Positions 5,542 to 29,982 of a DNA stretch of 59,316 bases are shown here, one piece after another. The notes beneath the pieces were generated by a model that saw nothing but the letters and a program-made list of their open reading frames with translations, was not told where the DNA came from and ran no database searches. Both the position numbers and the translations under genes were made by a program. Source of the stretch: Bacteroidota bacterium. Lineage in GTDB: Bacteria > Bacteroidota > Bacteroidia > UKL13-3. The number at the start of each line of letters is the position of its first letter. Position 1 is the first letter of the stretch. The DNA is taken from the NCBI GenBank assembly GCA_027488905.1, contig JAIYAT010000022.1:1-59316 (forward strand), given 5' to 3'.

Positions 5542-5577
5542 AAAGGAGTAAAGCCGAAAATCCTGTAAAGAGTAGGT
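5542..5577 (+). repeat. 36-nt leader element, copy 1
   Basis: The sequence AAAGGAGTAAAGCCGAAAAT continues as CCTGTAAAGAGTAGGT. It ends 20 nt before the ATG of the gene at 5598. It differs by one base from 29938-29973, and 23 nt of it are matched with one change at 11914-11936. GTAAAG occurs twice within it, 17 nt apart, as does GAGTA. AGGA and TCCT could form a small hairpin. Confidence 0.75.
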
Positions 5578-5597
5578 GAGAAATTTATTTTAAATTT

Positions 5598-7549: not shown

Positions 7550-7702
7550 ATGATAAACTCACCAATTTTAGATATCATCATCTCCTTAATAGGTGACTTC
7601 GGCAAGGTTTCATATGGTGCATTTAGCATTATTAGAAAATTTCAAATAGTTGAAAGTAAAAATTTGAAAAATTATATAAAATGGATGCAAAAGACTTTAT
7701 AA
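7550..7702 (+). CDS. Possible 50-residue ORF overlapping the hydrolase gene
   Basis: ATG at 7550 opens a 50-codon frame (MINSPILDIIISLIGDFGKV...) with an amphipathic or hydrophobic N-terminus. It overlaps the start of the alpha/beta hydrolase gene by 22 nt, an arrangement seen in coupled small effector or adaptor genes. There is no homology evidence, and it could be chance. Confidence 0.3.
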   Translation: MINSPILDIIISLIGDFGKVSYGAFSIIRKFQIVESKNLKNYIKWMQKTL

Positions 7703-9126
7703 TAAATGCCGGTCCGAATGGAACATTCCGACCTTCTGGTTCTTACCAAACCATGCCTGAACATATTGATGCAATATTTCAGCGTTATGAAACTGATAAG
7801 GTAAAAAAAATATCAATCTACTTTCATGGTGGTTTGGTTAATGAAAAAAATGGAATGGAAACTGCTTTTAAAATGGGCAAACACATTTTGGATGCAGGAC
7901 AAACACCACTCTGTTTTGTTTGGGAAACGGGTCTAACGGAAACAGTTTCATCTAACCTTACAAAGATTTCAGACACAAAACTATTTAATAAATTGATTAA
8001 AGTTTTGGTTAAGAAATTGTCTGAAAAGCTGGGGTTTGATTTAACGGAAGGTAAAGGAGCAGGTCAACTTTTAACTGATGAACAAATTGACAAAGAGTTA
8101 TTTAAACCTATTCCTTTTGAATCATACAATCTAGAAAAATTAATAGTTACAGGCAAAGGTGCGGAAGCAATTGCAATGTTGCCAAAAAATGAAGCTGATT
8201 TAATTCTTTCTTTAGAAGCAGACTTTACATATTTAATTCAAGCAGACCTTGATTTTACAAATACAATTGCAAAAACTAAGTTGACTGTTGACACAGGTCA
8301 ACAAGGACAAGCAAAAGGCATTATTAGTACTGCAATGTTCATCAAACATGTTGCTATAATTGCATTTAGAGTTATTAAAAGATTTATCAATAAGAGAGAC
8401 CATGATTTTTACCCCACTACGATAGAAGAAATTTTACGTGAACTTTATGTTGCAGAACTTGGGGCTTGGGTTTGGAACAATATGAAGGTTAAATCAAATG
8501 ATATGTGGAAAGACAATCAAAAGCTTTCAGGTTTGAATCGTTTTGTAGGCAGATACTTGCTTGATAAGTTAATTGATTACATTAAGAAAAATAATGATGC
8601 TGAAGTTAACCTTATTGGACATAGTGCTGGCTCAATTGCAATTTGTAATTTACTAAATACAACATCAAATATTTATCCTCAATTAGTTTACAACAAAATT
8701 GCTTTTTTGGCTCCTGCTTGCAGAATCGATTTATTCAATAAGGAAGTGGTTATGAATAAAAACAGGTTTAAACATTTTAGAATGTTTACTATGAACGACC
8801 AGTTTGAAATACAAGATAGACTTGTCCCTTATTTCTACACTCATTCATTATTGTATTTGATTTCAGGAATTCTTGAAGATGAAGGAAAAGATTTTGATGC
8901 TTATATTTTAGGATTACAAAGACATATCATTGGCAATTATCCTTATGATTCTGCGCAGGAATTGATTAATACAAATCAATTTCTTTTTGAAGCAGAAACA
9001 AATAGAATTGCATTTTCGCAAACCGATGTAAGTGCAACAGATGGAATGAAAACCAAATCAGTTACTCACGGTGGGTTTGATGATGACAATGAAACAATTG
9101 AAAGCATAAAATATTTTTTAAAATAA
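7681..9126 (+). CDS. Alpha/beta hydrolase (lipase/esterase-like)
   Basis: This is a soluble 481-residue hydrolase. An early HGG oxyanion-type motif (YFHGGLVNE, about residues 47-55) is followed by the nucleophile elbow GHSAG with Ser315. His463 in VTHGGFDDD near the C-terminus is the likely catalytic histidine. Residues 90-240 are a helical insertion that could be a lid. There is no signal peptide, so it is probably cytoplasmic. It is the first gene of an operon, only 9 nt from the caspase gene, so it may be an effector activated with or by the peptidase. The substrate is unknown. Confidence 0.8.
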   Translation: MDAKDFIINAGPNGTFRPSGSYQTMPEHIDAIFQRYETDKVKKISIYFHGGLVNEKNGMETAFKMGKHILDAGQTPLCFVWETGLTETVSSNLTKISDTKLFNKLIKVLVKKLSEKLGFDLTEGKGAGQLLTDEQIDKELFKPIPFESYNLEKLIVTGKGAEAIAMLPKNEADLILSLEADFTYLIQADLDFTNTIAKTKLTVDTGQQGQAKGIISTAMFIKHVAIIAFRVIKRFINKRDHDFYPTTIEEILRELYVAELGAWVWNNMKVKSNDMWKDNQKLSGLNRFVGRYLLDKLIDYIKKNNDAEVNLIGHSAGSIAICNLLNTTSNIYPQLVYNKIAFLAPACRIDLFNKEVVMNKNRFKHFRMFTMNDQFEIQDRLVPYFYTHSLLYLISGILEDEGKDFDAYILGLQRHIIGNYPYDSAQELINTNQFLFEAETNRIAFSQTDVSATDGMKTKSVTHGGFDDDNETIESIKYFLK

Positions 9127-9135
9127 GCAAATAAA

Positions 9136-10161
9136 ATGGAAAAAGACTTTGCGCTAATAATTGGTATTAATGACTATACTCCACCTGACTCTAATGGTCT
9201 TAGAACATTAGGTGGTGCAATAAGGGACGCTAATAATTTTGAGGAATGGGTTCTTAATCCCAACGGAGGCAATGTTCCAAAAGCAAATTGCAGAAAAATT
9301 ATTTCAAATTCCAATCCTCTGCAACCAATTCAGAAAGAGATTGATGATGCTTATTTGGAATTAGATGAATTAATTGGTAACGGTGTGGGACAAGCAAGGA
9401 GATTCTACTTCTACTTTTCAGGACATGGAGTTGGCTTAATGAATGCCACAAAAGAAATAGCACTCTGTTTAGCCAATTGGTCTGAGAAGAGAAGACATGA
9501 AGCACTTGGAGCAGAACTCTATAAAGAAACTTTCAATCAGTATGGATATTTTGATGAAATAATTTTTATACTGGATTGTTGTAGAAATACTAAGGTAAAT
9601 ATTAACCCTGCACACCCTTCTTTTTCTCCAATAATGCAGGGTCAAAATGCAGGACAAACGAAATTATTTACTGCTTATGCAACCCAATACCAAGACCAAT
9701 CATTTGAAGCAGAAGAAGAAAATTCAGAAATGAGAGGTGTATTTACAAAAGTCCTTTTAGATGGCTTAAAAGGTGATGCACCAAATGAAAACGGGATTAT
9801 TTCAGCAGACGGATTAAAGGATTATCTTATGAAGCAAACACCAATTGAGGCACAAAAAAAAGGTTACAAGCAAATCCCTCAAATTATAGTTGATTCATTT
9901 ACAAAGGAAACTCCATTTATTTCACTTGTTAACTTTCAAAGTGAAAACATAATTTGTTATATAGTATTTAGTGATGCAAGAAATGGAGATATAGAATTGA
10001 TTGACAATTCAGGAGTAATCAAATTTTACAATGCAAGCCAGCAAAAAAATGTTCAAGTAACATTATCGAAAGGCCTTTATTTATTAAGAGATACTGTAAC
10101 AGGCGATAAATATCCTATTCAAGTTTTACCTTCAAATAAAGAAATACATGTTGACTTCTGA
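9136..10161 (+). CDS. Caspase-family (C14) cysteine peptidase with C-terminal beta domain
   Basis: Residues 4 to about 250 form a caspase-hemoglobinase fold: DFALIIGINDY at the start, catalytic His97 in FSGHGVG, and Cys149 in LDCCRNT after beta-strand EIIFI. Such prokaryotic caspases usually act inside the cell as activated effectors in conflict or cell-death systems. Residues 262-341 are a separate beta-rich domain ending NVQVTLSKGLYLLRDTVTGD, similar to the N-terminus of the next protein. The stop lies 14 nt inside the next gene, so the two are probably co-translated. Confidence 0.9.
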   Translation: MEKDFALIIGINDYTPPDSNGLRTLGGAIRDANNFEEWVLNPNGGNVPKANCRKIISNSNPLQPIQKEIDDAYLELDELIGNGVGQARRFYFYFSGHGVGLMNATKEIALCLANWSEKRRHEALGAELYKETFNQYGYFDEIIFILDCCRNTKVNINPAHPSFSPIMQGQNAGQTKLFTAYATQYQDQSFEAEEENSEMRGVFTKVLLDGLKGDAPNENGIISADGLKDYLMKQTPIEAQKKGYKQIPQIIVDSFTKETPFISLVNFQSENIICYIVFSDARNGDIELIDNSGVIKFYNASQQKNVQVTLSKGLYLLRDTVTGDKYPIQVLPSNKEIHVDF

Positions 10162-11779
10162 GAAAAAACTAAATCATGCTCTTAGAATAAGAATTTCAGA
10201 AGAGTATAAATACCTTATAAATATTACGGTTTTTGATTCTAATAGTCGAATTATTGAAAGTCAATCTTCAAATAGATATGAGGTTTCATTTACACTTCCA
10301 ATGGGCTTATACACTATAAGAATAGAAATGAATGGCGATATTAAGGATGAGGTAATTTTATTAGATAAAGAAAAGGAGTATCTAATTGGGGACAAAAAAT
10401 CTTACACTACGGGCAACATAAAAATCATTTCCCCTCCGAAACAATTTTCATCTGCACTGCTTGGAGAAACCTACGGTTCATCTCATGAGTATTATACATA
10501 TCCTGCAATTGATTGGAGCAAAAAAGAAACTTTTCAATTTAGTCAAGATAGTAACGGTTCAAACTCCTCACTGTTTATTTTTCTTCGTTTTCCATCGGTT
10601 GAAAAGTTTAATAGGTTTAGAAGTACCTTTTCTAAACCATTTTATTGCGACTTTGAAATCGTTGACGAATACGGAAGTATATTAACTCAATTCGAAACAA
10701 AAAGTGGTATTGAAATTAACGAGCAACAAGGTTGGATAGCTTTTAATGCTAAGGTGCCAAATGGAATTTATTACTTATTGTTTAAAGGAAAAGAACCAAG
10801 ACAAATTCCCATTTATATTTATAAGAATTGGCATACTCAATTCTTTATGACTTTAGGTAATCAACCACTTTTTGGAACGACAAGAGTTTTTCTATCAAAA
10901 CAAAGAGAATTTAACCCTAATGAGAGAACATATAAATACGTTGATATTTTATTAGACAAACTTCAAAATCAAGATTTCAGTTTAGATAATGAATTAATCA
11001 ATGAGGTAGCAAATTCAAAATTTGAATCTCCCATGTTAGGTTTAATCTGCTCTTATATTTACCTACAAAGTAAAGAAACCAAAAGTGACAACCTTTTTAA
11101 TATCATTACTCAGAATATGCAGAATATCATTTTAAAAGACAACGAAGATTCACCAGACCTTCGTGCCTTGAATATTATAGCAGCAAATCATTTTCCTAAT
11201 TACAAATATAAAAAAGGAAGCATTAAAGGAACACCGATGTTGAGAATTGGTTTTGAAGCTATATTAAAAGCTTCAGTTCAAAACAAAGGTTTAATACCTC
11301 AAAATAGTATTAATGACTTTGTTTCCGAGAATATTTACTTCGATTCTCCTTTCAATATATTTAAACCAATACCATTCAAGAAAAAACAAACTCGAAAGCA
11401 AGCCAAAACAAAGAGATCATTTTCTAAGATTGAAGTTGAATTGCTTGAATCTTTGGATAATGATGGAATTGAATTGACAGAAATTTCATCCAAGGAAAAA
11501 ATGCTTCTACCAAAAAGTTTTAGCCATAATCCTAAAATTGATAAGTTTACTACAAGCATCAAAAATTTGTTTGATGACAGTCTATTCAGCTATATTCGAA
11601 GCACAAACGAACCTGACATTGAAAATAGCTGGATAAAAAGTTCCATTGCAGACATTATTAGATCGAAAAATGACATGAGCATCAACGATATTTCTAACGA
11701 CTTAAATGTTTCTGGAAATACGGTAACCAGAATATTTAACGACTGGAAAAAAGAAGCAAAGAAGAAATTTGGAAAATAA
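10148..11779 (+). CDS. Caspase partner protein with beta domains and C-terminal HTH
   Basis: No named family is recognised. Residues 10-80 are a beta-rich domain (EVSFTLPMGLYTIRIEMNGD) resembling the C-terminal domain of the upstream caspase. A second related segment lies near residues 165-230 (WIAFNAKVPNGIYYLLFKGK). Residues 250-400 look helical. The last 45 residues form a probable helix-turn-helix (SINDISNDLNVSGNTVTRI) followed by a Lys-rich tail. It could be a sensor or adaptor that binds the caspase through matching beta domains and perhaps regulates transcription. ATG at 10148 overlaps the caspase gene by 14 nt. Confidence 0.75.
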   Translation: MLTSEKKLNHALRIRISEEYKYLINITVFDSNSRIIESQSSNRYEVSFTLPMGLYTIRIEMNGDIKDEVILLDKEKEYLIGDKKSYTTGNIKIISPPKQFSSALLGETYGSSHEYYTYPAIDWSKKETFQFSQDSNGSNSSLFIFLRFPSVEKFNRFRSTFSKPFYCDFEIVDEYGSILTQFETKSGIEINEQQGWIAFNAKVPNGIYYLLFKGKEPRQIPIYIYKNWHTQFFMTLGNQPLFGTTRVFLSKQREFNPNERTYKYVDILLDKLQNQDFSLDNELINEVANSKFESPMLGLICSYIYLQSKETKSDNLFNIITQNMQNIILKDNEDSPDLRALNIIAANHFPNYKYKKGSIKGTPMLRIGFEAILKASVQNKGLIPQNSINDFVSENIYFDSPFNIFKPIPFKKKQTRKQAKTKRSFSKIEVELLESLDNDGIELTEISSKEKMLLPKSFSHNPKIDKFTTSIKNLFDDSLFSYIRSTNEPDIENSWIKSSIADIIRSKNDMSINDISNDLNVSGNTVTRIFNDWKKEAKKKFGK

Positions 11780-12149
11780 ATCTGCCTCACAAAAAATACA
11801 TTCACTCTCGTCCTGAAATATGTTGACCATTAAAACATTTAAAAGCAAAAAAGTAATTATTATTACTGAGTAATTAACCTTAGAGATTTCATTGATAACC
11901 TTGGTCGAAAAGTCGAAAATCCTTTAAAGAGTAGGTGTAGAAAAGTTCCTATTTACTCAAATTTGAATCTATATGTAAAATATTGTTTAAACTATCCACT
12001 TGGTAACGGAAACCATTTGAAACTTTCATTGAGTTAATTTTGCAAACTGTTAATTTGTAAACTTCCAAAAAACAGTTTAGATTAGAACCCATAATTAGAA
12101 CCTCAAATCTTTTAACAAACAATAGTGCTAAATTTGAAAAACCAAAACA
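11780..12149. other. Intergenic region with partial leader element
   Basis: No ORF of note. It contains the 23-nt element copy at 11914-11936. The remaining 210 nt up to the next ATG are AT-rich, with no clear terminator or promoter. Confidence 0.5.
11914..11936 (+). repeat. Leader element, copy 2 (partial)
   Basis: CGAAAATCCTTTAAAGAGTA plus GGT matches positions 14-36 of the full element with one change. The upstream GGAGTAAA half is replaced by GTCGAAAA. It lies 214 nt before the gene at 12150, further than in the other two copies. Confidence 0.65.
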
Positions 12150-13703
12150 ATGATTGAGCCAAAGGAAATAGCGGACAAATACTTTGAGAGATACTCAAAG
12201 ACTGTTTCGTGGTTTAATTATTTCTCGGTAATATCCATTTTGGTGTTGTTCACTAATTGGATTCTAATCGTTGAGCCTGCACATTTGATATTTTTAGAAA
12301 CAAAAAATGAAATAGATCGTCAGTATTTGATGGTGGAATCTCAACTTCAAATTTTGAAAACTGAAAAGGAATATCAACTAAAAAAAGTGAATAATGAAGT
12401 AGAAAAAATAATTGAAATTGAAAATTCATATTCAGAGTCAAGAAAACCATTAGAAAAACAGGTTGAAAAACCAAAGACTGAAAAATTAGGAGAGGCATTG
12501 AAAGTTGAAGATTGGCTGCCAAAAGATTGGTTTGAGGGTATTAAACTTGTTTTTAAGATTTGCAAATTTCCATTTTATGGAGCAACAATTCTAAGCGGCT
12601 TATTTTTCTTTTTTATTTTCACGCTATTCTTTATTAGAAGTAAATGTTTACATTATTTGTCTAAAGCTTTAAGAATTTATAAAGAAGAAAAAAGTCTTCA
12701 AATAAATCAGTATAAGGATTTCAATCTTAAACCTTCGATTTGGTTAATGCCTTTGCCGAAAATTAAAAATAAAAGTATTGAGCATTTGGAGATTAAGACA
12801 ATTCTTGGTTTAAATTTCAGCTACCAAAAACTTTATATTTTTTTTATTTCTTCTTTATTTATAATTCTTTTAATTCAATTCAGGTTAGCATATATTACAT
12901 ATCAAGTCACTAATTCAAAAATTACCACATTACTTCTAACGAATTTCTCTATTACTCTCGGCACATTAATTTTAATTGTATTTTGGCTAAAGCGAAAAAA
13001 GATAGAAGATAACTTTAATACTGAACCTAATCCTAATGAAATAACTAGGAAGGAATTTCTATCATTATCATTTTTAGCTTCAGTATCATTAGCATCATAC
13101 AGATTTACACCATTTATCTTAAAATACTCTTATAAACGAGTTCCTCGTTTTAAGCCAAACAAAATAAGGTTGCCATTTACCATTCCGGAATATAGGTCTT
13201 CATTGGTATTGAATTCTAAATCTAACATTGTCCATTACATTAATGAAATTGGGTTTTCTCTTTCATTTAAGACAATTTCGAATGCGAGTAACTTTAAAGA
13301 ATTCAAGAGCCATATCAATAAATTTGAAGACAGTTTTAGCTTTAATAGTTTAAATGAAACGCCAAGAATCTCAAAGAGACAATCGAGTTGGCATGCAGAA
13401 AATTACTCTTTGCAACTAATTAAAGAGGGGGACTTTAAAACTGCTGTAAAAATTTTACTATATTCTATTAATCAAAACATTGAAAATAGCAAACCAAGTA
13501 TCCGTTTACATGATTTGTTAGCAACTCTTTGTATAAGGCATAAAGAAAAAGTACCAAAGGGAACCTTACAAACATTATTTGACTTATCAATTAATTCAAG
13601 GAATGAAAGACTTATTGCGGCAGTTAATAAGTGGAAAAGTCAATCATGGCAAATAAAAAAATTAAAGAAGAAAAAAATAACTTTCAATAATATAGAAATC
13701 TAA
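12150..13703 (+). CDS. Multi-pass membrane protein with coiled coil, unknown
   Basis: I do not recognise the family. Hydrophobic segments lie near residues 23-41, 142-165, 227-250, 262-285 and about 305-320, the last in RKEFLSLSFLASVSLASYRF. Residues 50-105 are a charged coiled-coil-like region (QLQILKTEKEYQLKKVNNEV). The C-terminal 150 residues are soluble and helical, with possible TPR-like packing (ENYSLQLIKEGDFKTAVKIL). The twin-basic RK is internal and is not a Tat signal. It lies between the caspase operon and the tRNA-like sequence and has the same AT-rich composition. It may be a membrane sensor or anchor for the neighbouring effectors, but nothing proves this. Confidence 0.75.
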   Translation: MIEPKEIADKYFERYSKTVSWFNYFSVISILVLFTNWILIVEPAHLIFLETKNEIDRQYLMVESQLQILKTEKEYQLKKVNNEVEKIIEIENSYSESRKPLEKQVEKPKTEKLGEALKVEDWLPKDWFEGIKLVFKICKFPFYGATILSGLFFFFIFTLFFIRSKCLHYLSKALRIYKEEKSLQINQYKDFNLKPSIWLMPLPKIKNKSIEHLEIKTILGLNFSYQKLYIFFISSLFIILLIQFRLAYITYQVTNSKITTLLLTNFSITLGTLILIVFWLKRKKIEDNFNTEPNPNEITRKEFLSLSFLASVSLASYRFTPFILKYSYKRVPRFKPNKIRLPFTIPEYRSSLVLNSKSNIVHYINEIGFSLSFKTISNASNFKEFKSHINKFEDSFSFNSLNETPRISKRQSSWHAENYSLQLIKEGDFKTAVKILLYSINQNIENSKPSIRLHDLLATLCIRHKEKVPKGTLQTLFDLSINSRNERLIAAVNKWKSQSWQIKKLKKKKITFNNIEI

Positions 13704-13706
13704 AAC

Positions 13707-13774
13707 GGGGTAAGTATTTTAATGTAGAATACCGTGAAAGCGGAGGTAAGGGTTCGAATCCCTTCTTCGCCCCA
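13707..13774 (+). other. tRNA-like relic without D-arm, possible attachment site
   Basis: A canonical T-arm is present: stem AAGGG/CCCTT (13748-13752 and 13760-13764) with loop TTCGAAT, followed by CTTCGCCCCA. The 5' end GGGGTAAG (13707-13714) pairs imperfectly with TTCGCCCC. Between them are a 5-bp stem with a 7-nt loop (13715-13731) and a small CCG/CGG hairpin (13732-13743). There is no D-arm and position 33 of the loop is not T, so this is not a functional standard tRNA. It is probably the 3' part of a tRNA left by integration. It starts 4 nt after the preceding stop codon. Confidence 0.5.
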
Positions 13775-14484
13775 ATTTTAAACTAATTTCAAGACGACTA
13801 TCCTTCTAATAAACAGTAAGTTATCCGATAAGAAGGTGTTTGTGATAGCTTGGTTTCCTCGTGTTTTGAGTTAACATTTGGTTTATTTCTCCAAATAAAC
13901 TTTAATGTTAATAAAACCCACCTACTAAACTGAAACTTGTTAAATAGTAATTGATAAAATTAGCTTACCCAACCAAGAAAAGCTATTCTCCAACAGGTGA
14001 ATTTGATTTTAGAGATATCCTTGTTAATTTTATGGTTGTACCCTCTAAAGATGCTTCGAAGTTTTCAAATATCCCCATTTATCAAAACAGATTAATTTAA
14101 TCAAGTTTAATAAGGCCGTAAACCTTTGAACGAGGAGTTAAGTAAGTTAATCGATGACTATTTAGAATTAGTATTAGTTCATGTCACTAGAAAGCCTTTT
14201 AAATTTCCACCAACCTACTTTCACCTTCCAACCTACCTCTCACCTCCAAAAATCCCCCAAAAAGTTTTCCCCAATTTTTAAGGCTGTTTTAAGATGGCTG
14301 AGCCAATTCAGCAATTTTCTTAGGAACAATGGGCTTTTTCGGGCGTTGAAAAAAAAATCCTACTTCTAGGATTGTGTTTTTCACCTAAGATAATCTTTCA
14401 TTTTGTTTTTCTCAGTTTTGGGTTAGCTAAGAAACACGCAACGAAGCGGGTTTCGTAAAACACAATTTTTTTAACCCATATTTT
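13775..14484. other. Largely non-coding stretch
   Basis: About 700 nt with no convincing gene. A TTG-start frame at 13951-14100 (49 codons, containing SYSPTGEFDFRDILVNF) could be a gene fragment. A 62-codon frame at 14181-14369 has low-complexity Pro/Phe/Lys content and is not convincing. ACGAA/TTCGT forms a small hairpin just before the next gene. It is probably decayed sequence between island modules. Confidence 0.45.
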
Positions 14485-14964
14485 ATGGAAAACAAAGTAA
14501 ACGCAGCCATTGATGCTGCCACCCAAACCAAGGTTGAAGCTGCCATTAAGAGCATTGCTAGCGACCTTCCCTTTTTAATTGAATTGAGCGCTACCGAATC
14601 GAAGCGCTTATCACACATGGAAGCGGGCAGGGCCGATTTTGTGAGAAGGGCATTGTACTTGGCGCAAAACAACCCCAAGATTCAACCTCAGTTTTTTGAA
14701 ATGGTCAATTATGAGAATGACATCAACCTTACCCAAAGCCTAGATGTGATTATTGGTCAAACCGAGAGCCTGCTAAAGCGCCTGTGCGATACCAGAGACC
14801 AAGCTGGCAGTGAAGCCTATTTGGCTGCATTGGAGGTGTACAGCACCACCAAAAGAGGTTCAGCAAAAGGAGTAGATGGCGCCAAAACTGCCTATGACGA
14901 GCTAAAAGGGATGTTTAATGGTCAAGGTAAAGCAATTAAACCAAACGACACAAACAAAGCCTAA
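14485..14964 (+). CDS. Small conserved Bacteroidota protein of unknown function
   Basis: This is a 159-residue, helical, soluble protein. It resembles a recurrent Bacteroidota hypothetical family that I know from the pattern of a helical N-terminus, LPFLIELSATE, and the conserved GSEAYLAALEVYSTTK near residues 112-127. No catalytic motif or signal peptide is seen. Its richer codon use differs from the AT-rich island genes around it. A hairpin follows, then a 22-bp tandem repeat array. Family recall is from memory; the function is unknown. Confidence 0.8.
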   Translation: MENKVNAAIDAATQTKVEAAIKSIASDLPFLIELSATESKRLSHMEAGRADFVRRALYLAQNNPKIQPQFFEMVNYENDINLTQSLDVIIGQTESLLKRLCDTRDQAGSEAYLAALEVYSTTKRGSAKGVDGAKTAYDELKGMFNGQGKAIKPNDTNKA

Positions 14965-15032: not shown

Positions 15033-15059
15033 TCATATATTAGGTTCATCAACACACTA

Positions 15060-15388
15060 AACTGGGTTTATCTTAAAACAAAACTAGTTTAGGTTAAAAC
15101 ATAACTGGGTTCATCCCAAAACATAACTAGGTTTAGTTTGAAACATAACTGAGTTTATCTCAAAATATAACTGGGTTTAGGTTCAAGCTTAACTAGGTTT
15201 ATCTCAAAACATAACTAGGTTTAGTTTGAAACATAACTGAGTTTATCTCAAAATATAACTGGGTTTAGGTTCAAACATAACTAAGTTTAGTTCGAAACAT
15301 AACTGAGTTTATCTCAAAACATAACTGAGTTTAGTTTGAAAAATAACTGAGTTTAATTACAAACCGAACTAAGTTCACCTGAAAAACA
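15060..15388. repeat. Tandem array of fifteen 22-bp units
   Basis: The consensus is AACTRRGTTTAKYTYRAAAC plus AT. Fourteen units are 22 bp and one is 21 bp. Several adjacent unit pairs repeat as higher-order doublets (for example units 4-5 and 8-9). Each unit holds a GTTT...AAAC inverted repeat, and the period is close to two helical turns. Because 22 is not a multiple of 3 and stops are frequent, it is not coding. There are no spacers, so it is not CRISPR. Confidence 0.9.
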
Positions 15389-15835
15389 ATATGCTTAATG
15401 GAAGTTATGTGAGTGCTTAATGTGCACCACATACTATTTTTTTCAGCCAAATAATTTAATTTAAATTTTAACAGACTTTTCATGGAAAAAGCCTATAAAA
15501 GTCAAAAAAAATTATCAAAACTTTGAAAATAGATTAATGAATTTTTGAAAACAATTGTTATCAAAATATTATCATAAATCATTTAGAACTAGCCAGCAAG
15601 CTTGGTTCCAGTTGCTTTACTTTTAATCTATTTCCAATTCATGTTTGATACTTGCTTTTCTCAAATCTAATTATCATATTCGTGTTGCCTATTAAAAAAA
15701 CTTTAAATAATTCTCTAAATGCTACCCTACTTTTTAGACAAAATTGCTATTTATATTTTGCAATTTAATAGCGGCATCAAACTGGCTTCAATTAATTAGA
15801 AAATAAATTAATTTTCCTGAGAAACAAATTGTAGC
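15389..15835. other. Upstream region of the giant peptidase gene
   Basis: About 450 nt, very AT-rich and without a gene. It presumably contains the promoter for the 1905-residue protein. I see TATATTTTG near 15752 but no clean -33/-7 pair. Confidence 0.4.
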
Positions 15836-18800
15836 ATGTTTAGAACCATCAAACTCAATGGAATTTCTGAAGGTTCGCATCTGTTGGATGAGTCGGAAAA
15901 TTTATTGGTAATTAGATTAAATGTTGGCTTAAACGTTTACAAAGTACTTAGCGAAATTCCTAAGGCACTTCCATTCCTAAATAAGGTAAGTCTCTTTGAA
16001 TCCTTTCCAGAAAGTAATGTATTTGTTTTAAGTATTAAAAAAGATAAGAATGAACCAACTCTTAAAGAAACATTTAAGAGCATCGTTAAAGAAAGCCAAC
16101 ACTCTGACATTAAATATATAGGTAGCGTATTGAAGTATAAAGATTCTGGTGTTTACCAACTTTATACGGGTAACTTATTTCTTAAGTTTAACAATACAAT
16201 AAACGAGTTGGATGCTTATTCGTTTTTTGAAACGTACGACTTAAAGCTTAAATTGAAGTTAGGCTTTGCTGTTAATTCCTTTTTTTTGGAAGCACCCACA
16301 TCCTTAGGTAGAGATATATTTGAATTTGCGTTACTGCTTGAAAAGAACCCAATTGTAGAAATTTGTTATCCAGAATTGGTTACGAAACGAATAGGAAATC
16401 AGCGATTTTTACAAAACAATAGTAATAGCAATTACCCATTAAACACTGCATGGACACATGAGCTAGTTAACCTAAAGCATGTCTGGAAACATACCAAAGG
16501 CAAAGGCGCATCTATTTGTTTTATTGATGATGGAATTGACTTCTCACATCCAGCATTTTTGCCAAATTCCAGAATAACGGCCTGCAAAGATATGATGGAT
16601 AAATCAGGCAAAAGAAAGCCACAGCACTTATTTAATGAGGGGCATGGAACTGCATGTGCTTCTATTGCTTGTTCCGCTGATCCAAGAGCAATAGGCATAG
16701 CCCCTGAAGCATCGCTAATGGTAGTGAGAACAATGGGCTTAGGCTCTGTATTAGAGGCCGAAGCTATTTATTGGGCAACACAGCAAGGTGCAGACATTAT
16801 TTCATGCAGTTGGGGTCCACCAGATGGCAACTTTAGAACACTAAAAAAGAACCATTCAAAATACCCTATTCCAGACCACACAGATATTGCCCTAAGATAT
16901 GCCGCAAGAGAAGGTAGGAATGGTAAAGGTTGCCTTGTATTCTTTGCAGCAGGAAATGGCGATGAGTTAATTTCCAATGATGGTTATGCTTCTCATCCCG
17001 ATGTGTTGGCCATTGGAGCAGTTAATAAATCATTGCAAAAAACAGTTTACTCAGATTATGGCTATCCATTATTTTGCTGCTTTCCAAGTGGAGATTTTTC
17101 TAAAGTAGCCCCTGATAAATGGGAACAAAACAGCGGTATAGCAGCAGCAGATGCAATGGGAGAATTTGGATTAGTGCCTGGCGACTTTAATCCTATGTTT
17201 ACTGGATCGTCTGCCTCCTGCCCTGCGGTTGCAGGCATTGCAGCCTTGCTCATTTCATTAGAACCCAATGTATCAAAAGATGAGGCCACTCAAATCATAA
17301 GAGATTCATGCACTCCTTTAGGAACGTCGACTGAAAGAGATTCAAATGGTTACCACCAACAATTTGGTTACGGCCTTCCCAATTTAGAAACTATGATTCA
17401 TACCCTTCAAAACAATCAACATATTAACCTAAAAAAAAATAAAATGGAAAACAGCACCCTTAAAACCAAACAACAATTATTGGCACTCCACATAGGAATC
17501 AATGTGGTAGACAACAAGTATTACCATGGACTTATACCCGAATTAAAGGGTTGTGTAAACGACAAACAAAATTTGGAAAATTGGTCAAAAAGTAAAGGAT
17601 TTTTAACGGTAGGCTTAACAAATGAAAGTGCAACCAAAGAGAATATTATAAAAGAAATACTTAACCTAGCGCAAGTTACGCATGCAGAAGATTGGGTGCT
17701 AGTAACCTATGCTGGTCATGGAGCTCCAATTAAAGATGAGAATGCTGATGAACATGATGGTTTTGATGAGTCTTGGGTTACCTACAATGGGTTTTTAATA
17801 GACGATGAAATTAACGCAGCCCTTAAGCAATTTAAAACTGGAGTAAATGTTATTTTTCTATCCGACTCGTGTCATAGTGGTACGGTAGCGAGAAGTTTAA
17901 ATGTAATGAATGAACCGTTAAATGGTGATGTTCTCATGCGATATATTCCATTACATATTGTTAATCAAGTTTTAAGTCTGAACCAAACATTTGCGGGAGA
18001 ATTAAAAGGCAGGGCATTAGGAAAAAGAATGTTAATAGAAGATGAACAAGTAATGTCTAACTTACTAAGTTTTGCAGCATGCCAAGATGATGAATTTGCG
18101 CAAGAATTGAATGGTAAAGGACTTTTTACTACCGCTTTTTTAGATTGTATGAAAAAGGCAGAAAGTATAAAAAACTATAATCATTTATATGTAATGGTAA
18201 GGGAAGCACTACCTAGGAATCAAAATCCTAAGTTGTTTTTTTATGGCCCTAAAGTGATTGATTTCCCCAATCACCCTCTTTTCGAAAATATTTCTATGCA
18301 TAATGCAAGTCACCAAGAAAAAAATACCGTACAAAGCAACCCATCAAAACCTTCTAAACCAATTTCACCAAATAAAAATGGCAGGTTGGTAATTAATACA
18401 AGCGAGCAAGAAATAATAATAAATAAAGGTTCAAATCGCACTTTAAGTGAAGAAATACTTCCAGTAATAGAAGGAAGTATCGATGCGAAATCGTTTGAAG
18501 GAAGAACATTATGGGACAAGGCTTATGATTGCTTTTTAAAAAGTGAAGGAAAAGTAAGTTGGGTTGAACCAGATATTGCATCAGATGTTAATGGAGACCC
18601 AACCTTAAAAGAAAGTGCTTCACGAAATTCTGATGGCGATACTTTTAACTGGTTACACACTTATCCTCCCCAAAAAGAAGATGAAGCTAAGGTGCCTTTC
18701 GATTGGCATTTGGATAACGAACATAGTCAGTTAAAGGCAGCAAGAGAGGAAGTTTTTCCTGAAATAGTTGCTGGTGTAGAACCTAATCCAAACAAGAAGC

Positions 18801-21553
18801 TAGTAAAAATTGCACATATAGATACTGGGTATTTAAGAAACCACCCTGTATTACCAAAAAAACATAAAGGTGAACGATCTATATTAATTGGTGGTAACGA
18901 TAATAATGATGGTGCAATTGATTATAATAAACCAATGTCGCTGGCCGAGCAACAAGGTCATGGTAATGCAACCCTAGCTATTTTAGCGGGTAGAAAAATA
19001 TCATCTAAATCAGGCGATACCCCTTACAATGATTATTTTGGAGGAAATCCTTTTGCTGAAGTTATCTCAATAAAAATAAGTGAAACGGTTGTTCTATTAA
19101 GTGGAAAAAACTTTGCTCAAGCCATTGATTATGCAATAACAGAAAATGTAGATATCATTACCATGAGTATGGCAGGATGGTGCACTAAAACCATGGCTGA
19201 TGCAGTTAACAGAGCCTATGAAGCTGGTGTTATTATTTGCTGTGCTACAGGGAATAATTGGGTTAATGGTATAAAAAAACTTATTCCTAAAACTGTTTTA
19301 TACCCTGCTAGATTTGAAAGAACAATTGGTGTAGCAGGAGCAACATACAACCATAAACCTTATGTTTTTGATTTACACAATCCAAAAACACGGGCAGAAG
19401 GAGGCCTTTATATGCAAATGAGTTATGGGCCTGAAAGTGCTATGGGTTCCATAATTGCAGGATACTCACCAAACATTATTTGGTTTGGCCATGAGCCAGA
19501 TGCAGAAAAAGATCCTTTATATGTAAAAAATGGCGGTGGAACCTCTTCAGCCACTCCTCAAGTTGCTGCTGCTGCATCTCTTTATCTTCAAAAATATAGA
19601 GAAGAAATTGAAATAATTGCTGGAAACGAAAAATGGAAGAAGGTAGAAATTGTAAAAGAAGCATTATTTAGAACAGCCTATAAAGAACCCATGTATGCCT
19701 CTTATTTGGGCAATGGTATTGTTAAAGCTGCCAATGCCTTAAAGTTACATCCATCTAAAATTGATAATATTAAAGAAGCCCCAAAAGCGCAATCTGAAGG
19801 AAGTTTTTTTAAAAAGCTTTTTAAATTATTTAGTAGAAACTTATTAGCCAATGAATCAAATGAAACGCTTAAAGAAATGCTTGGTAATGAATTAATTCAG
19901 CTAATGCATAAGGAAGAAGCTTTGTATCCATTGTTAGAACTTAACTTTTCGAGTCCAAATTTTGATTTTAATGTTGAACAGAAAACGCTTTTACTTGAAA
20001 CACTTGAAAGAAGCAGCCTAGCTTCAGATTTTTTAAAGAAAAGTATCCTTACTGATAGAAATATTAACAATTATACCATTAAAAGAAATCATTTATCACC
20101 TAATGATTCTATACACAATATTGAGCTAGATTTAAATGGAATACAATTGTTAATCAATAGCAAAGGAGTAGATTATGAAGTAGGTAATGTTGAATGTGAT
20201 GAACTAAGTAATCAGAAAAATAACTTTAGAACAGACACTATTGAAATTACACTTTCTGAAGAATCTAATAGGTCTGCCAATAGTTACCTTCAAGTACAAA
20301 ATAATTTAGAAGAAGAAGGAAGAGAAGGTATTGTACTTGTTCTAAAAGAAATAAATGGCGAATGGATTGCAGATTGGAAATTTCCTGAGGAAACAAGTAA
20401 TGGCCAAACTGCTAATAGGGCTATCAATAATAACTTTAATGCAAACGGCAATGCCATTGACCTTTTAGAAGTAAAAGCTGAAAATAGAGGTATTGCAAGC
20501 CTTGCAGGCAAAATTATTCTTAAAGTATTTAGTTGGATAAAGCCTAAAGCAAAAAATAAGGAAAAATCTAATTGGGAAAACTTTCTTTCCAATAGTGTAG
20601 ATTATAAGTATGAATGCTATGCCATTGATTTGTTAGAGAATGAAGTTTCGTCAGATAAATGGATTAAAATTAGCGATAACTTAAACCAGCCTATTTGGAA
20701 TTATATTATAGAAGAAAAAAAGCCCCTTCTTATGTTATTCCCTGGGCTTTTCAGAGAAGTTCAAACAAACTTTACAGATATGTTGAACAATTCCGAATTC
20801 AAAGAGCTGGTTAACAAAAAATATGGTCGATATGCAATTGGGTTCAATGTGCCGGATGTGATTGATGGGATTTCACTAAATGCTCAAAAAATTGATAAAT
20901 TAATTCCAACTGGAATCGCAAATAAACCTTGTTCAGTAATTGCGAGAAGCCGAGGAGGATTAGTGGCTAGATATTTATTTGAAAAAACTTGGCAACATAA
21001 CAATCCAAGTAAAAGGAAATTTGAGTTAGAAAAATTGGTTTTTATTGCTACACCAAATATGGGAACTCCTATTGCCAATAACGAATTATGGAAAAACCTA
21101 GCCACCAACTTGGTAAACTTAACGGGAAAAGCCTTCTCACTTGGCAATCCAATGTTTAAAGGTTTTGAGATACTTCTAGGCGCTATTGTAAACAAGGTGA
21201 CAGATCTTCCAGGGATTGATAACTTAGAAGAAAACAGCGAATTGATAACTTTATTAAATAGCGGATTAGAAAAGAAAGAAAACTATTATGCAGTAGCTGC
21301 AGATTTTGAATTTAAACCAGCTATCCTAAATGCATTAGAAGAATGGATGTTGGATAAAAAAGTTTTTAGTAGAAGACCAAATGACGGGGTAGTTCCTGTT
21401 CAAAGTGTAACCTTTGCCCATGGAAATGGCAATGACGTTTTGAGATTTGAAAATATAAAATATGTAGGAAATTCTCAAGGGGTTAACCATTTAAATATTC
21501 TTAACAAAAAGAATAGTGAAATATTAACATGGATAGCATCAGTTATCAAGTAA
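15836..21553 (+). CDS. Giant fusion: subtilisin - caspase - subtilisin - alpha/beta hydrolase
   Basis: This 1905-residue protein has four enzyme domains. Residues 1-200 resemble a subtilisin propeptide (SLGRDIFEFALLLEKNPIVE). Subtilisin 1 has Asp231, His270 and Ser459 (TGSSASCP). The caspase (about 543-800) has His628 (YAGHG) and Cys679 (SDSCHSG). A second propeptide-like stretch (about 855-905) leads to subtilisin 2 with Asp996, His1042 and Ser1237 (GTSSATPQ). Residues 1600-1905 form a lipase-like hydrolase with Ser1705 (ARSRGG), Asp1850 and His1885. All catalytic residues appear present. There is no signal peptide, so it is probably intracellular. An A9 run at 17431-17439 sits exactly at the subtilisin-caspase junction, just before an in-frame ATG at 17444. 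A likely role is a multi-effector or self-processing conflict protein; this is inference. Confidence 0.9.
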   Translation: MFRTIKLNGISEGSHLLDESENLLVIRLNVGLNVYKVLSEIPKALPFLNKVSLFESFPESNVFVLSIKKDKNEPTLKETFKSIVKESQHSDIKYIGSVLKYKDSGVYQLYTGNLFLKFNNTINELDAYSFFETYDLKLKLKLGFAVNSFFLEAPTSLGRDIFEFALLLEKNPIVEICYPELVTKRIGNQRFLQNNSNSNYPLNTAWTHELVNLKHVWKHTKGKGASICFIDDGIDFSHPAFLPNSRITACKDMMDKSGKRKPQHLFNEGHGTACASIACSADPRAIGIAPEASLMVVRTMGLGSVLEAEAIYWATQQGADIISCSWGPPDGNFRTLKKNHSKYPIPDHTDIALRYAAREGRNGKGCLVFFAAGNGDELISNDGYASHPDVLAIGAVNKSLQKTVYSDYGYPLFCCFPSGDFSKVAPDKWEQNSGIAAADAMGEFGLVPGDFNPMFTGSSASCPAVAGIAALLISLEPNVSKDEATQIIRDSCTPLGTSTERDSNGYHQQFGYGLPNLETMIHTLQNNQHINLKKNKMENSTLKTKQQLLALHIGINVVDNKYYHGLIPELKGCVNDKQNLENWSKSKGFLTVGLTNESATKENIIKEILNLAQVTHAEDWVLVTYAGHGAPIKDENADEHDGFDESWVTYNGFLIDDEINAALKQFKTGVNVIFLSDSCHSGTVARSLNVMNEPLNGDVLMRYIPLHIVNQVLSLNQTFAGELKGRALGKRMLIEDEQVMSNLLSFAACQDDEFAQELNGKGLFTTAFLDCMKKAESIKNYNHLYVMVREALPRNQNPKLFFYGPKVIDFPNHPLFENISMHNASHQEKNTVQSNPSKPSKPISPNKNGRLVINTSEQEIIINKGSNRTLSEEILPVIEGSIDAKSFEGRTLWDKAYDCFLKSEGKVSWVEPDIASDVNGDPTLKESASRNSDGDTFNWLHTYPPQKEDEAKVPFDWHLDNEHSQLKAAREEVFPEIVAGVEPNPNKKLVKIAHIDTGYLRNHPVLPKKHKGERSILIGGNDNNDGAIDYNKPMSLAEQQGHGNATLAILAGRKISSKSGDTPYNDYFGGNPFAEVISIKISETVVLLSGKNFAQAIDYAITENVDIITMSMAGWCTKTMADAVNRAYEAGVIICCATGNNWVNGIKKLIPKTVLYPARFERTIGVAGATYNHKPYVFDLHNPKTRAEGGLYMQMSYGPESAMGSIIAGYSPNIIWFGHEPDAEKDPLYVKNGGGTSSATPQVAAAASLYLQKYREEIEIIAGNEKWKKVEIVKEALFRTAYKEPMYASYLGNGIVKAANALKLHPSKIDNIKEAPKAQSEGSFFKKLFKLFSRNLLANESNETLKEMLGNELIQLMHKEEALYPLLELNFSSPNFDFNVEQKTLLLETLERSSLASDFLKKSILTDRNINNYTIKRNHLSPNDSIHNIELDLNGIQLLINSKGVDYEVGNVECDELSNQKNNFRTDTIEITLSEESNRSANSYLQVQNNLEEEGREGIVLVLKEINGEWIADWKFPEETSNGQTANRAINNNFNANGNAIDLLEVKAENRGIASLAGKIILKVFSWIKPKAKNKEKSNWENFLSNSVDYKYECYAIDLLENEVSSDKWIKISDNLNQPIWNYIIEEKKPLLMLFPGLFREVQTNFTDMLNNSEFKELVNKKYGRYAIGFNVPDVIDGISLNAQKIDKLIPTGIANKPCSVIARSRGGLVARYLFEKTWQHNNPSKRKFELEKLVFIATPNMGTPIANNELWKNLATNLVNLTGKAFSLGNPMFKGFEILLGAIVNKVTDLPGIDNLEENSELITLLNSGLEKKENYYAVAADFEFKPAILNALEEWMLDKKVFSRRPNDGVVPVQSVTFAHGNGNDVLRFENIKYVGNSQGVNHLNILNKKNSEILTWIASVIK

Positions 21554-22149: not shown

Positions 22150-22899
22150 ATGGAGAATATAACTAAAAAGCACTTAATTAAAAAAGGTCAAGAAAAAGAG
22201 GCATTAGATTTTATTCTAACCAATTGCTTTCGTGCAGGGTTTGGAACAGTTCCTAAATCCGAAATAGATCTTATCCTTTTTACCGCTTTACTTAAATATT
22301 CTGACGAGAATGTTGATAATGATTATGAATTAAGTAAATACTTGCAAATTACTCAGAGGCAAATTTCCAATCTTAAAGAAAAAGCAAGTGTAAAATATCT
22401 TCAAATCACTAGTGAAGAGGCTATTTCTATTTTTTTAGACAAGGCTAATAGCGCAAAATTAGATGACAAATATATTGAGATACCAATAAATAATATAGCT
22501 GTTAAAAATGAAATTGAAGCCATTCTTGACAAAAATGATATCCTCTTGCAATCTCAACTGAATCCAAAAATATTCCGGTTAAGAGTAGATGACTTCTTTG
22601 AATTAATTATTCTCTTTGAAAGCATTTTAAATAGAACTGATAATAAAGAAACAGCTGAAAATCGTGTTATTGAGGTATTAAAAGGCGCTGCTTCCAAAAA
22701 CAAGGAAGCAATGGGAAAAATTAGTAAACAAGAAAATGATTTGCTAACTATCTCAAAAAAAACCCTTAAGGAAGGGTTAGTTAAAGGCGGGTTCTCACTG
22801 CTCATAGACCTATTAACGTCTTTGATACCTGGAGGGGCTTTCATTTCTGAACCAATCAAAAAACTCTTTGATACTTTTAAAAGGAATACTGTAAAATGA
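22150..22899 (+). CDS. Helicase-operon protein with HTH-like N-terminus and hydrophobic C-terminus
   Basis: This protein has 249 residues. Residues 30-80 contain GTVPKSEIDLILFTALLKYS and DYELSKYLQITQRQISNLKEKA, which reads as a helix-turn-helix DNA-binding or adaptor domain seen, as I recall, in accessory defence proteins. Residues 210-235 (GGFSLLIDLLTSLIPGGAFI) are hydrophobic and Gly-rich, and could insert in the membrane or form a pore. It is the first gene of a three-gene operon, and its TGA overlaps the helicase ATG by 4 nt. It could be a regulator or an abortive-infection effector. No family name is given with certainty. Confidence 0.75.
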   Translation: MENITKKHLIKKGQEKEALDFILTNCFRAGFGTVPKSEIDLILFTALLKYSDENVDNDYELSKYLQITQRQISNLKEKASVKYLQITSEEAISIFLDKANSAKLDDKYIEIPINNIAVKNEIEAILDKNDILLQSQLNPKIFRLRVDDFFELIILFESILNRTDNKETAENRVIEVLKGAASKNKEAMGKISKQENDLLTISKKTLKEGLVKGGFSLLIDLLTSLIPGGAFISEPIKKLFDTFKRNTVK

Positions 22900-29937: not shown

Positions 29938-29973
29938 AAAGGAGTAAAACCGAAAATCCTGTAAAGAGTAGGT
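29938..29973 (+). repeat. 36-nt leader element, copy 3
   Basis: It is identical to copy 1 at 5542-5577 except G to A at position 12. It ends 9 nt before the ATG at 29983, so it would lie in the 5' leader or over the ribosome entry region of that gene. Flanking sequence is not shared with copy 1, so selection or mobility acts on the element itself. Confidence 0.75.
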
Positions 29974-29982
29974 AAAAGAAAT

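Follow-up and report, generated by a model that had tools for sequence, protein, structure and literature searches.

A 68-nt tRNA-like element lies on the forward strand at 13707-13774 of the window (the whole 59,316-nt stretch of DNA analysed), 3 nt behind the stop codon of a membrane-protein gene that we call P0001. An element of the same anatomy, with acceptor, D- and T-arms and a stub in place of the anticodon arm, is found 2 nt behind the stop codon of a distantly related copy of this gene in a Chitinophagaceae MAG (L122). We conclude that the element is probably no debris but a functioning tRNA mimic linked to this gene. That it is a conserved, functional RNA linked to its gene is very likely; the reading that we prefer, in which it is a dedicated tRNA-mimic RNA forming the last part of a two-piece unit of gene and RNA, has in our estimate a probability of roughly 0.45, and we give slightly less than even odds to the RNA acting in trans as the partner of the protein. 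The window corresponds to one whole contig (C33) of a draft genome of 3.55 Mb in 40 contigs that is 99.9% complete.

The element reads, from 5' to 3', GGGGTAAG-TATTTTAATGTAGAATA-CCGTGAAAGCGG-AGGT-AAGGGTTCGAATCCCTT-CTTCGCCCC-A, and its parts are listed in Table 1 together with the upstream gene and the island that holds both. The T-arm, the CCCCA-type 3' end and the small hairpin that had been claimed in the preliminary description of this DNA were all found, and the arm with a 5-bp stem and a 7-nt loop that it reported can be drawn over the positions of the first hairpin (13715-13731). The first hairpin retains U8, A14, A15, A21 and one G of the loop GG, as counted in tRNA numbering. By this numbering, a tertiary A15-U48 pair would be expected in the element.

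Table 1. Parts of the tRNA-like element and the features that surround it in the window.
Feature	Positions	Strand	Basis or remark
Acceptor stem, 5' strand, GGGGUAAG (8 nt)	13707-13714	+	Pairs with 13765-13773, the C at 13768 being bulged
D-arm, UAUUUUAAUGUAGAAUA	13715-13731	+	Rfam tRNA alignment; alignment to D-arms against shuffles; near-identical in both copies
Short hairpin CCGU-GAAA-GCGG, standing for the anticodon arm	13732-13743	+	Rfam alignment; fold
Variable region AGGU, 4 nt (AGAU in the second copy)	13744-13747	+	Sequence
T-arm AAGGG-TTCGAAT-CCCTT, 5 bp, loop UUCGAAU	13748-13764	+	Sequence
Acceptor stem, 3' strand, CUUCGCCCC, followed by the terminal A; no encoded CCA	13765-13774	+	Sequence
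P0001, gene of a 517-aa membrane protein	12150-13703	+	Hydropathy; homologue in L122
Accessory island between the KUP and methyltransferase genes, holding the element	5242-31492		Comparison with relatives

The second copy (L122:6506-6573, GGGTTGAGTATTTCAATGTAGAATAACGCTTCCAGCGCAGATAGGGGTTCGAATCCCCTCTTGACCCA) scores 39.9 bits with the Rfam tRNA model, whose gathering score is 29, and 61.9 bits with a covariance model built from the window copy alone. The two RNAs are identical at 55 of 67 aligned positions (82%), and none of 2000 shuffles of the second copy aligned equally well. Gapped global alignments of the surrounding DNA gave 894/1485 identities for the ORF (60%), 94/147 for its last 150 nt, 105/186 for the 200 nt downstream (56%) and 110/178 for the 200 nt upstream of the gene (62%); since the background of such alignments reaches about 56-62%, the RNA stands out whereas the ORF, at the DNA level, does not. 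Conservation covers a near-identical D-arm and reaches its loop and the variable region. Two pairs differ between the copies in a compensatory manner, namely acceptor pair 4 (G-C/U-A) and T-stem pair 2 (A-U/G-C), and 43 of 44 pair cells are standard, as opposed to 47-60% when the partners are slid. With two sequences and an alignment fitted to the structure, this covariation is non-significant by column shuffle, the observed values being reached in 71/500 and 126/500 shuffles. The hairpin of the second copy is ACGCUUCCAGCGC, with its outermost pair broken. The case for what appears to be a conserved RNA rests jointly on position, identity and anatomy, as these are read from the two sequences.

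The covariance-model scan that the preliminary description had proposed as a check placed the element above the gathering score of the tRNA family: RF00005 matched 13708-13772 with 33.8 bits, compared to a threshold of 29 (E 3.7e-5 for the genome). No Rfam family except tRNA was above its own cut-off at the element, and no tRNA was called by ARAGORN in the window or in L122. The preliminary description had considered the element as lacking a D-arm; the Rfam model reads the first hairpin as precisely this arm, with one of the two loop Gs absent, and sets CCGUGAAAGCGG at the position of the anticodon arm. Thus, it is the anticodon arm that is absent by the covariance model, and the fit of the sequence gives the same answer. 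For this comparison, 30 of the other 31 tRNAs that Rfam finds in the genome supplied D-arm and anticodon-arm regions, and the 19-nt arm was aligned to both. The best score against D-arms was reached by 1/300 shuffles for the window copy and by 0/300 for the second copy, whereas the fit to anticodon arms was ordinary, since 72/300 and 227/300 shuffles, respectively, were equally good. The first arm fits D-arms and not anticodon arms, indicating that the D-arm has been kept and the anticodon arm lost. The normal 17-nt anticodon arm is replaced by 12 nt in the window copy and by 13 in the second, and the 5-bp stem with 7-nt loop that a canonical tRNA carries between D-arm and variable region is absent. 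Both copies possess the T-arm of a canonical tRNA (5 bp, loop TTCGAAT). In both copies, the first arm can pair in the 3-bp D register as well as in the 5-bp one; the latter is better by 1.3 kcal/mol in the window copy and the former slightly better in the second copy (-20.3 vs -19.7 kcal/mol, a gap of 0.6). As these gaps are opposite in direction, base pairing alone does not decide between the two.

The structure of the element exceeds chance. The folding energy of the window copy lies 2.84 sd below that of its shuffles, 2/200 of which are equally good, and the second copy folds only 1.64 sd better than its own shuffles, with 16/200 equally good, both tests being made with only 0-4 nt of flank. 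The lowest-energy fold of the window copy (-24.7 kcal/mol) has three hairpins, one of them the T-arm; the first 5 acceptor pairs close it, and beneath the T-arm GAGG is paired with CTTC. The imperfect acceptor stem of about 8 bp that had been claimed is thus only partly borne out: it can be drawn by hand with 8 pairs and a bulged C, at -16.7 to -18.0 kcal/mol for the complete tRNA-like structure, but the lowest-energy fold keeps 5 pairs. We retain the 8-pair drawing of the window copy because of the comparison with the second copy and not because of its energy. In the second copy, the lowest-energy fold is the tRNA-like one with all 8 acceptor pairs. Compared with the 7-bp acceptor of a canonical tRNA, eight standard pairs are present in both copies when the alignment is fitted to the structure, and the own folds of the two copies contain 8 (second copy) and 5 (window copy) of them.

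Searches for further copies were carried out at the RNA and DNA levels. The RNA model of the window copy found no second copy in 62 genomes from the same order or in 395 from the phylum; the best other match listed, the window itself being excluded, reached 35.3 bits, and all 33 of the other matches that were fetched are ordinary tRNAs (31 Ser and 2 Ala). A model built from the two copies returned nothing further from 92 genomes of another family (f24) and 395 genomes of the class. These genome sets overlap partly, and the filters of such searches lose weak matches. DNA similarity in 64 genomes of the order yielded four matches at E<=0.01, corresponding to the window, G036, G031 and G048; those of G031 and G048 are tRNA-Ser, and that of G036 (L041) reads as the beginning of a coding sequence on the opposite strand. 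The window copy showed similarity to 96 phage and 8 plasmid records, none covering 80% of it, and the matches listed (20 of the 96 phage and all 8 plasmid records) are all confined to its 3' part. Of the phage matches listed, most are annotated as tRNA, and the four that were fetched are tRNA by Rfam. The second copy matched 5 phage records, all annotated as tRNA, and 1 plasmid record. Pattern scans gave 0 matches in the genome contigs and 0, 0, 0, 1 and 0 in five scans of the viral contigs; the single candidate (L124) does not match the RNA model and was taken as a chance hit. Among the results listed by searches of the open-access PMC literature, none named such an RNA. In the genomes sampled, the gene-RNA unit appears rare and patchy, as accessory units are.

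The homologue of P0001 in L122 is full-length and identical at 217 of 524 positions (41%). Four hydrophobic segments are seen in P0001 and five in its relative. The C-terminal helical domain of P0001 ends in a basic tail, with a KKKK tract that is conserved in the homologue; the last 110 residues contain 21 K/R vs 9 D/E in P0001 and 18 vs 8 in the relative, although the whole proteins are likewise basic (79 K/R vs 49 D/E and 77 vs 44), so that the tail stands out little. Pfam gave no match to P0001 at E<=0.001, and at E<=1 none that exceeds a cut-off; NCBIfam and PHROGs (E<=0.1) and PADLOC (E<=0.001) likewise matched nothing. Its relative gave one weak PHROGs match, to a family of unknown function (E 0.051). 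A protein scan of 84,980 genomes, which finds only close relatives because it is built on short exact peptides, confirmed two loci, L122 and L123; the sequence of the latter reads as an RpiR-type regulator and was set aside as a chance match. Besides P0001 itself, no relative was detected in 296 genomes of the phylum, nor in the plasmids, phages and viral contigs searched. The structure model of full-length P0001 is poor (pLDDT 48.5). Among five models of the C-terminal 190 aa, the best has a mean pLDDT of 68.1 and the others 44-57; it is helical, and residues 91-180 of the 190-aa piece are modelled at pLDDT 80-92. Its structural look-alikes are generic helical arrangements, resembling helical repeats, and the best of them (Z 9.7) is within the range that helical bundles give without kinship. 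Foldseek with this model returned no match at E<=0.001.

Gene and RNA belong to a stretch that differs between relatives. In five of these (G014, G003, G005, G012 and G004), about 40-650 nt, measured between aligned ends, separate the KUP potassium-transporter gene from the genes found from about 31493 on in the window. Because KUP adjoins the methyltransferase gene in these relatives, the intervening stretch of the window is an island, with the element 8.5 kb inside. The island is absent from these five genomes, and G007 has mostly other content at this place. The spot between the two genes is variable in length, with about 650 bp in G014 and about 11 kb in G007.

Other features of the island were noted. 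A three-gene caspase module at 7587-11803 encodes a 481-aa hydrolase-like protein, a 341-aa caspase (PF00656) and a 543-aa protein whose C-terminus weakly matches an HTH. It is 92.4% identical over 4218 nt to positions 6701-10918 of L085, from another genus of the family, and this match ends sharply with unmatched flanks, which points to a recent transfer. The helicase encoded at 22896-25460 matches SngC of the Shango anti-phage system (PADLOC E 4.1e-156), and no PADLOC model matched its neighbours at 22150 and 25460. Two Rfam DUF805b motifs lie in the island (5543-5578 and 29939-29974); a third copy at 11909-11937, upstream of P0001, is 93% identical over 29 nt to the first and was not reported by Rfam at E<=0.01. 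Between the genes of a 159-aa and a 1905-aa protein, an intergenic array of direct repeats of about 22 bp (family D1) extends over 15042-15419, and the 1905-aa protein (15836-21553) carries subtilase, caspase and DUF7379 domains.

The preliminary description had left a choice between a tRNA 3' piece used as an integration site and a degenerate tRNA-like RNA. The location in an accessory island favours the former; however, the last 24 nt of the element occur once in the genome even when 3 mismatches are allowed, so that the search for an intact tRNA with the same 3' end elsewhere found none, and a position 8.5 kb inside is not that of an island edge with an integrase gene. No integrase was found by a Pfam scan of 14 island proteins, and there is no tRNA at the empty site, as neither Rfam in the matching stretches of six relatives nor ARAGORN in two of them detected an RNA. 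Moreover, the 5' strand of the acceptor is present and pairs. With no second half-site and no intact tRNA, an att site in a tRNA gene was rejected, and we hold a leftover 3' piece to be scarcely credible. The preliminary description had named as refuting the absence of any tRNA with the last 25-30 nt in common, together with the absence of a transcript; the first half of this came true, but the tRNA-like RNA itself survives it because the second copy exists. The same copy bears on the other choice: the element is indeed tRNA-like, as judged by Rfam and by the second copy, but its conservation behind a homologous gene and its compensatory pairs do not suit the word degenerate. A decayed tRNA gene carried in with the island would account for the failure of ARAGORN to call it, for the bulge in the acceptor stem and for a 3' part in common with ordinary phage tRNAs, yet it would not lead one to expect an RNA that is better conserved than the coding DNA before it, and we consider such a pseudogene very improbable. 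An unusual translating tRNA of the D-armless type, with 13715-13731 as its anticodon arm, would agree with the 5-bp/7-nt register, which pairs in both copies and is the better one in the window copy. Nevertheless, the D register has the slight advantage in the second copy, A and not U precedes the would-be anticodon, and the sequence of the arm fits D-arms; since a D-armless tRNA has no D-arm and a normal anticodon arm, we rejected this candidate and give it almost no weight.

The main rival to the partner RNA is a purely cis-acting role at the end of the mRNA. The tRNA fold would then serve only to fix the 3' terminus of the message through cleavage by RNase P and RNase Z, or to couple the fate of the mRNA to translation, and the released RNA would have no job. 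The canonical T-arm of both copies agrees with this role, as does their short distance from the stop codon (3 nt and 2 nt). Terminator-like sites in 13500-14500 are no more frequent than expected by chance (one, at 14297, vs 0.9), which also favours it. On the other hand, RNase P accepts a minihelix of acceptor and T-stem, and the conservation of the D-arm loop and of the variable region is more than a plain processing signal should need, and we regard this role as possible though rather unlikely. A different proposal is that the RNA serves as an amino-acid donor. Some synthetases, of the alanine and histidine types, need no anticodon. One that reads only the acceptor end could charge the RNA, namely an alanine-type enzyme or, with the eighth pair taken as G-1:C73, a histidine-type one, and the charged RNA would feed the membrane protein, which would resemble MprF-like enzymes in this respect. 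The acceptor stem of 8 standard pairs that can be drawn in both copies and the membrane nature of the partner favour this proposal. It is improbable all the same, in view of a P0001 protein in which neither Pfam nor NCBIfam finds an aminoacyl-transferase domain, a C-terminal domain modelled as helices resembling helical repeats and an RNA devoid of a G3:U70 pair.

We therefore return to the dedicated tRNA-mimic RNA. The RNA would be transcribed together with the membrane-protein gene. With a tRNA-like fold at the end of the transcript, cleavage is predicted on either side of the element, by RNase P at its 5' end and by RNase Z at its 3' end, as in a tRNA. Cleavage would free the RNA, and the mRNA would then end directly after its stop codon. 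A ribosome positioned at this stop codon would cover the 5' strand of the acceptor, so that release of the RNA may compete with translation. Once freed, the RNA could not decode because it has no anticodon loop, and if the acceptor domain of 8+5 bp is right, poor binding to EF-Tu would make a use in translation unlikely. Instead, it may be the partner of the protein, probably through the basic C-terminal domain of the latter, as a ligand, a scaffold or an inhibitor. We think that RNA and protein could form such a partnership.

A mimic that keeps T-arm, D-arm and acceptor but has no anticodon arm would show that tRNA processing can be borrowed for a regulatory or partner RNA, and the unit offers a small, testable gene-RNA pair in distantly related bacteria. 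It is located in a defence-type island, next to the caspase module and the Shango-type helicase. A bolder and unlikely version is that of a two-part unit in which the membrane protein acts through, or is controlled by, a tRNA mimic excised from the message that encodes it, the state of the protein being set by the tRNA machinery (RNase P, RNase Z, the CCA enzyme and perhaps a synthetase) or by the attack of phage or anticodon nucleases on tRNA. In an immune unit of this kind, the RNA would act as a decoy, a tRNA without the anticodon at which such nucleases cut.

Few tRNA mimics are built into bacterial genomes, and those met here are tmRNA and Y RNA. Among small RNAs, SpF41 of Streptococcus (RF02435) shares with the element a long acceptor, a hairpin with a 4-nt loop and a T-arm; its score of 30.1 bits is below the gathering score of 52, the second copy gave no match at E<=0.1, and membership was rejected. 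tRNA(Sec) carries a long variable arm, and this arm is absent from the element. Bacterial tRNA(Sec) is described as having a 13-bp acceptor domain (8+5) and a 6-bp D-stem with a 4-nt loop, and as being a poor EF-Tu ligand owing to its longer 8-bp acceptor (PMC7609411). The element would resemble tRNA(Sec) and the other 8/5 tRNAs in its 13-bp acceptor domain, if its 8-bp acceptor is right, and differs from tRNA(Sec) in having neither that D-stem and loop nor an anticodon arm. tmRNA, whose 5' end is processed by RNase P (PMC3985003), has like the element the upper half of a tRNA; in contrast to tmRNA, the element has no tag reading frame and no mRNA-like domain, and the genome possesses its own intact tmRNA elsewhere. 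A tmRNA or a tmRNA 3' fragment was also rejected by model score, only the T-arm matching (11.1 bits over 17 positions, cut-off 47). The bacterial Y RNA YrlA is 90-150 nt long and tethers Rsr by a large basal stem (PMC8394870, PMC7790460). The element differs from it by its length of 68 nt, by having its acceptor as the closing stem and by the absence of a basal stem, the stop codon being located 3 or 2 nt before the acceptor. The neighbouring gene encodes a membrane protein and not Rsr; P0001 has no Pfam match, hence no Ro60 domain is seen in it, and with no Ro60 gene and no basal stem the element was not assigned to the bacterial Y RNAs. YrlA nevertheless contains a module similar to three arms of tRNA (D, T and acceptor) and is encoded in some bacteria in one operon with Rsr (PMC8394870), which sets a precedent for a tRNA-like RNA that shares its locus with its protein partner. 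It has also been suggested that this tRNA-like domain might inhibit an anticodon nuclease competitively (PMC7790460). A tRNA-like module with the same three arms, encoded together with a protein, is what YrlA and the element have in common, and although the element is no member of the class, bacterial Y RNA is the closest known thing in concept.
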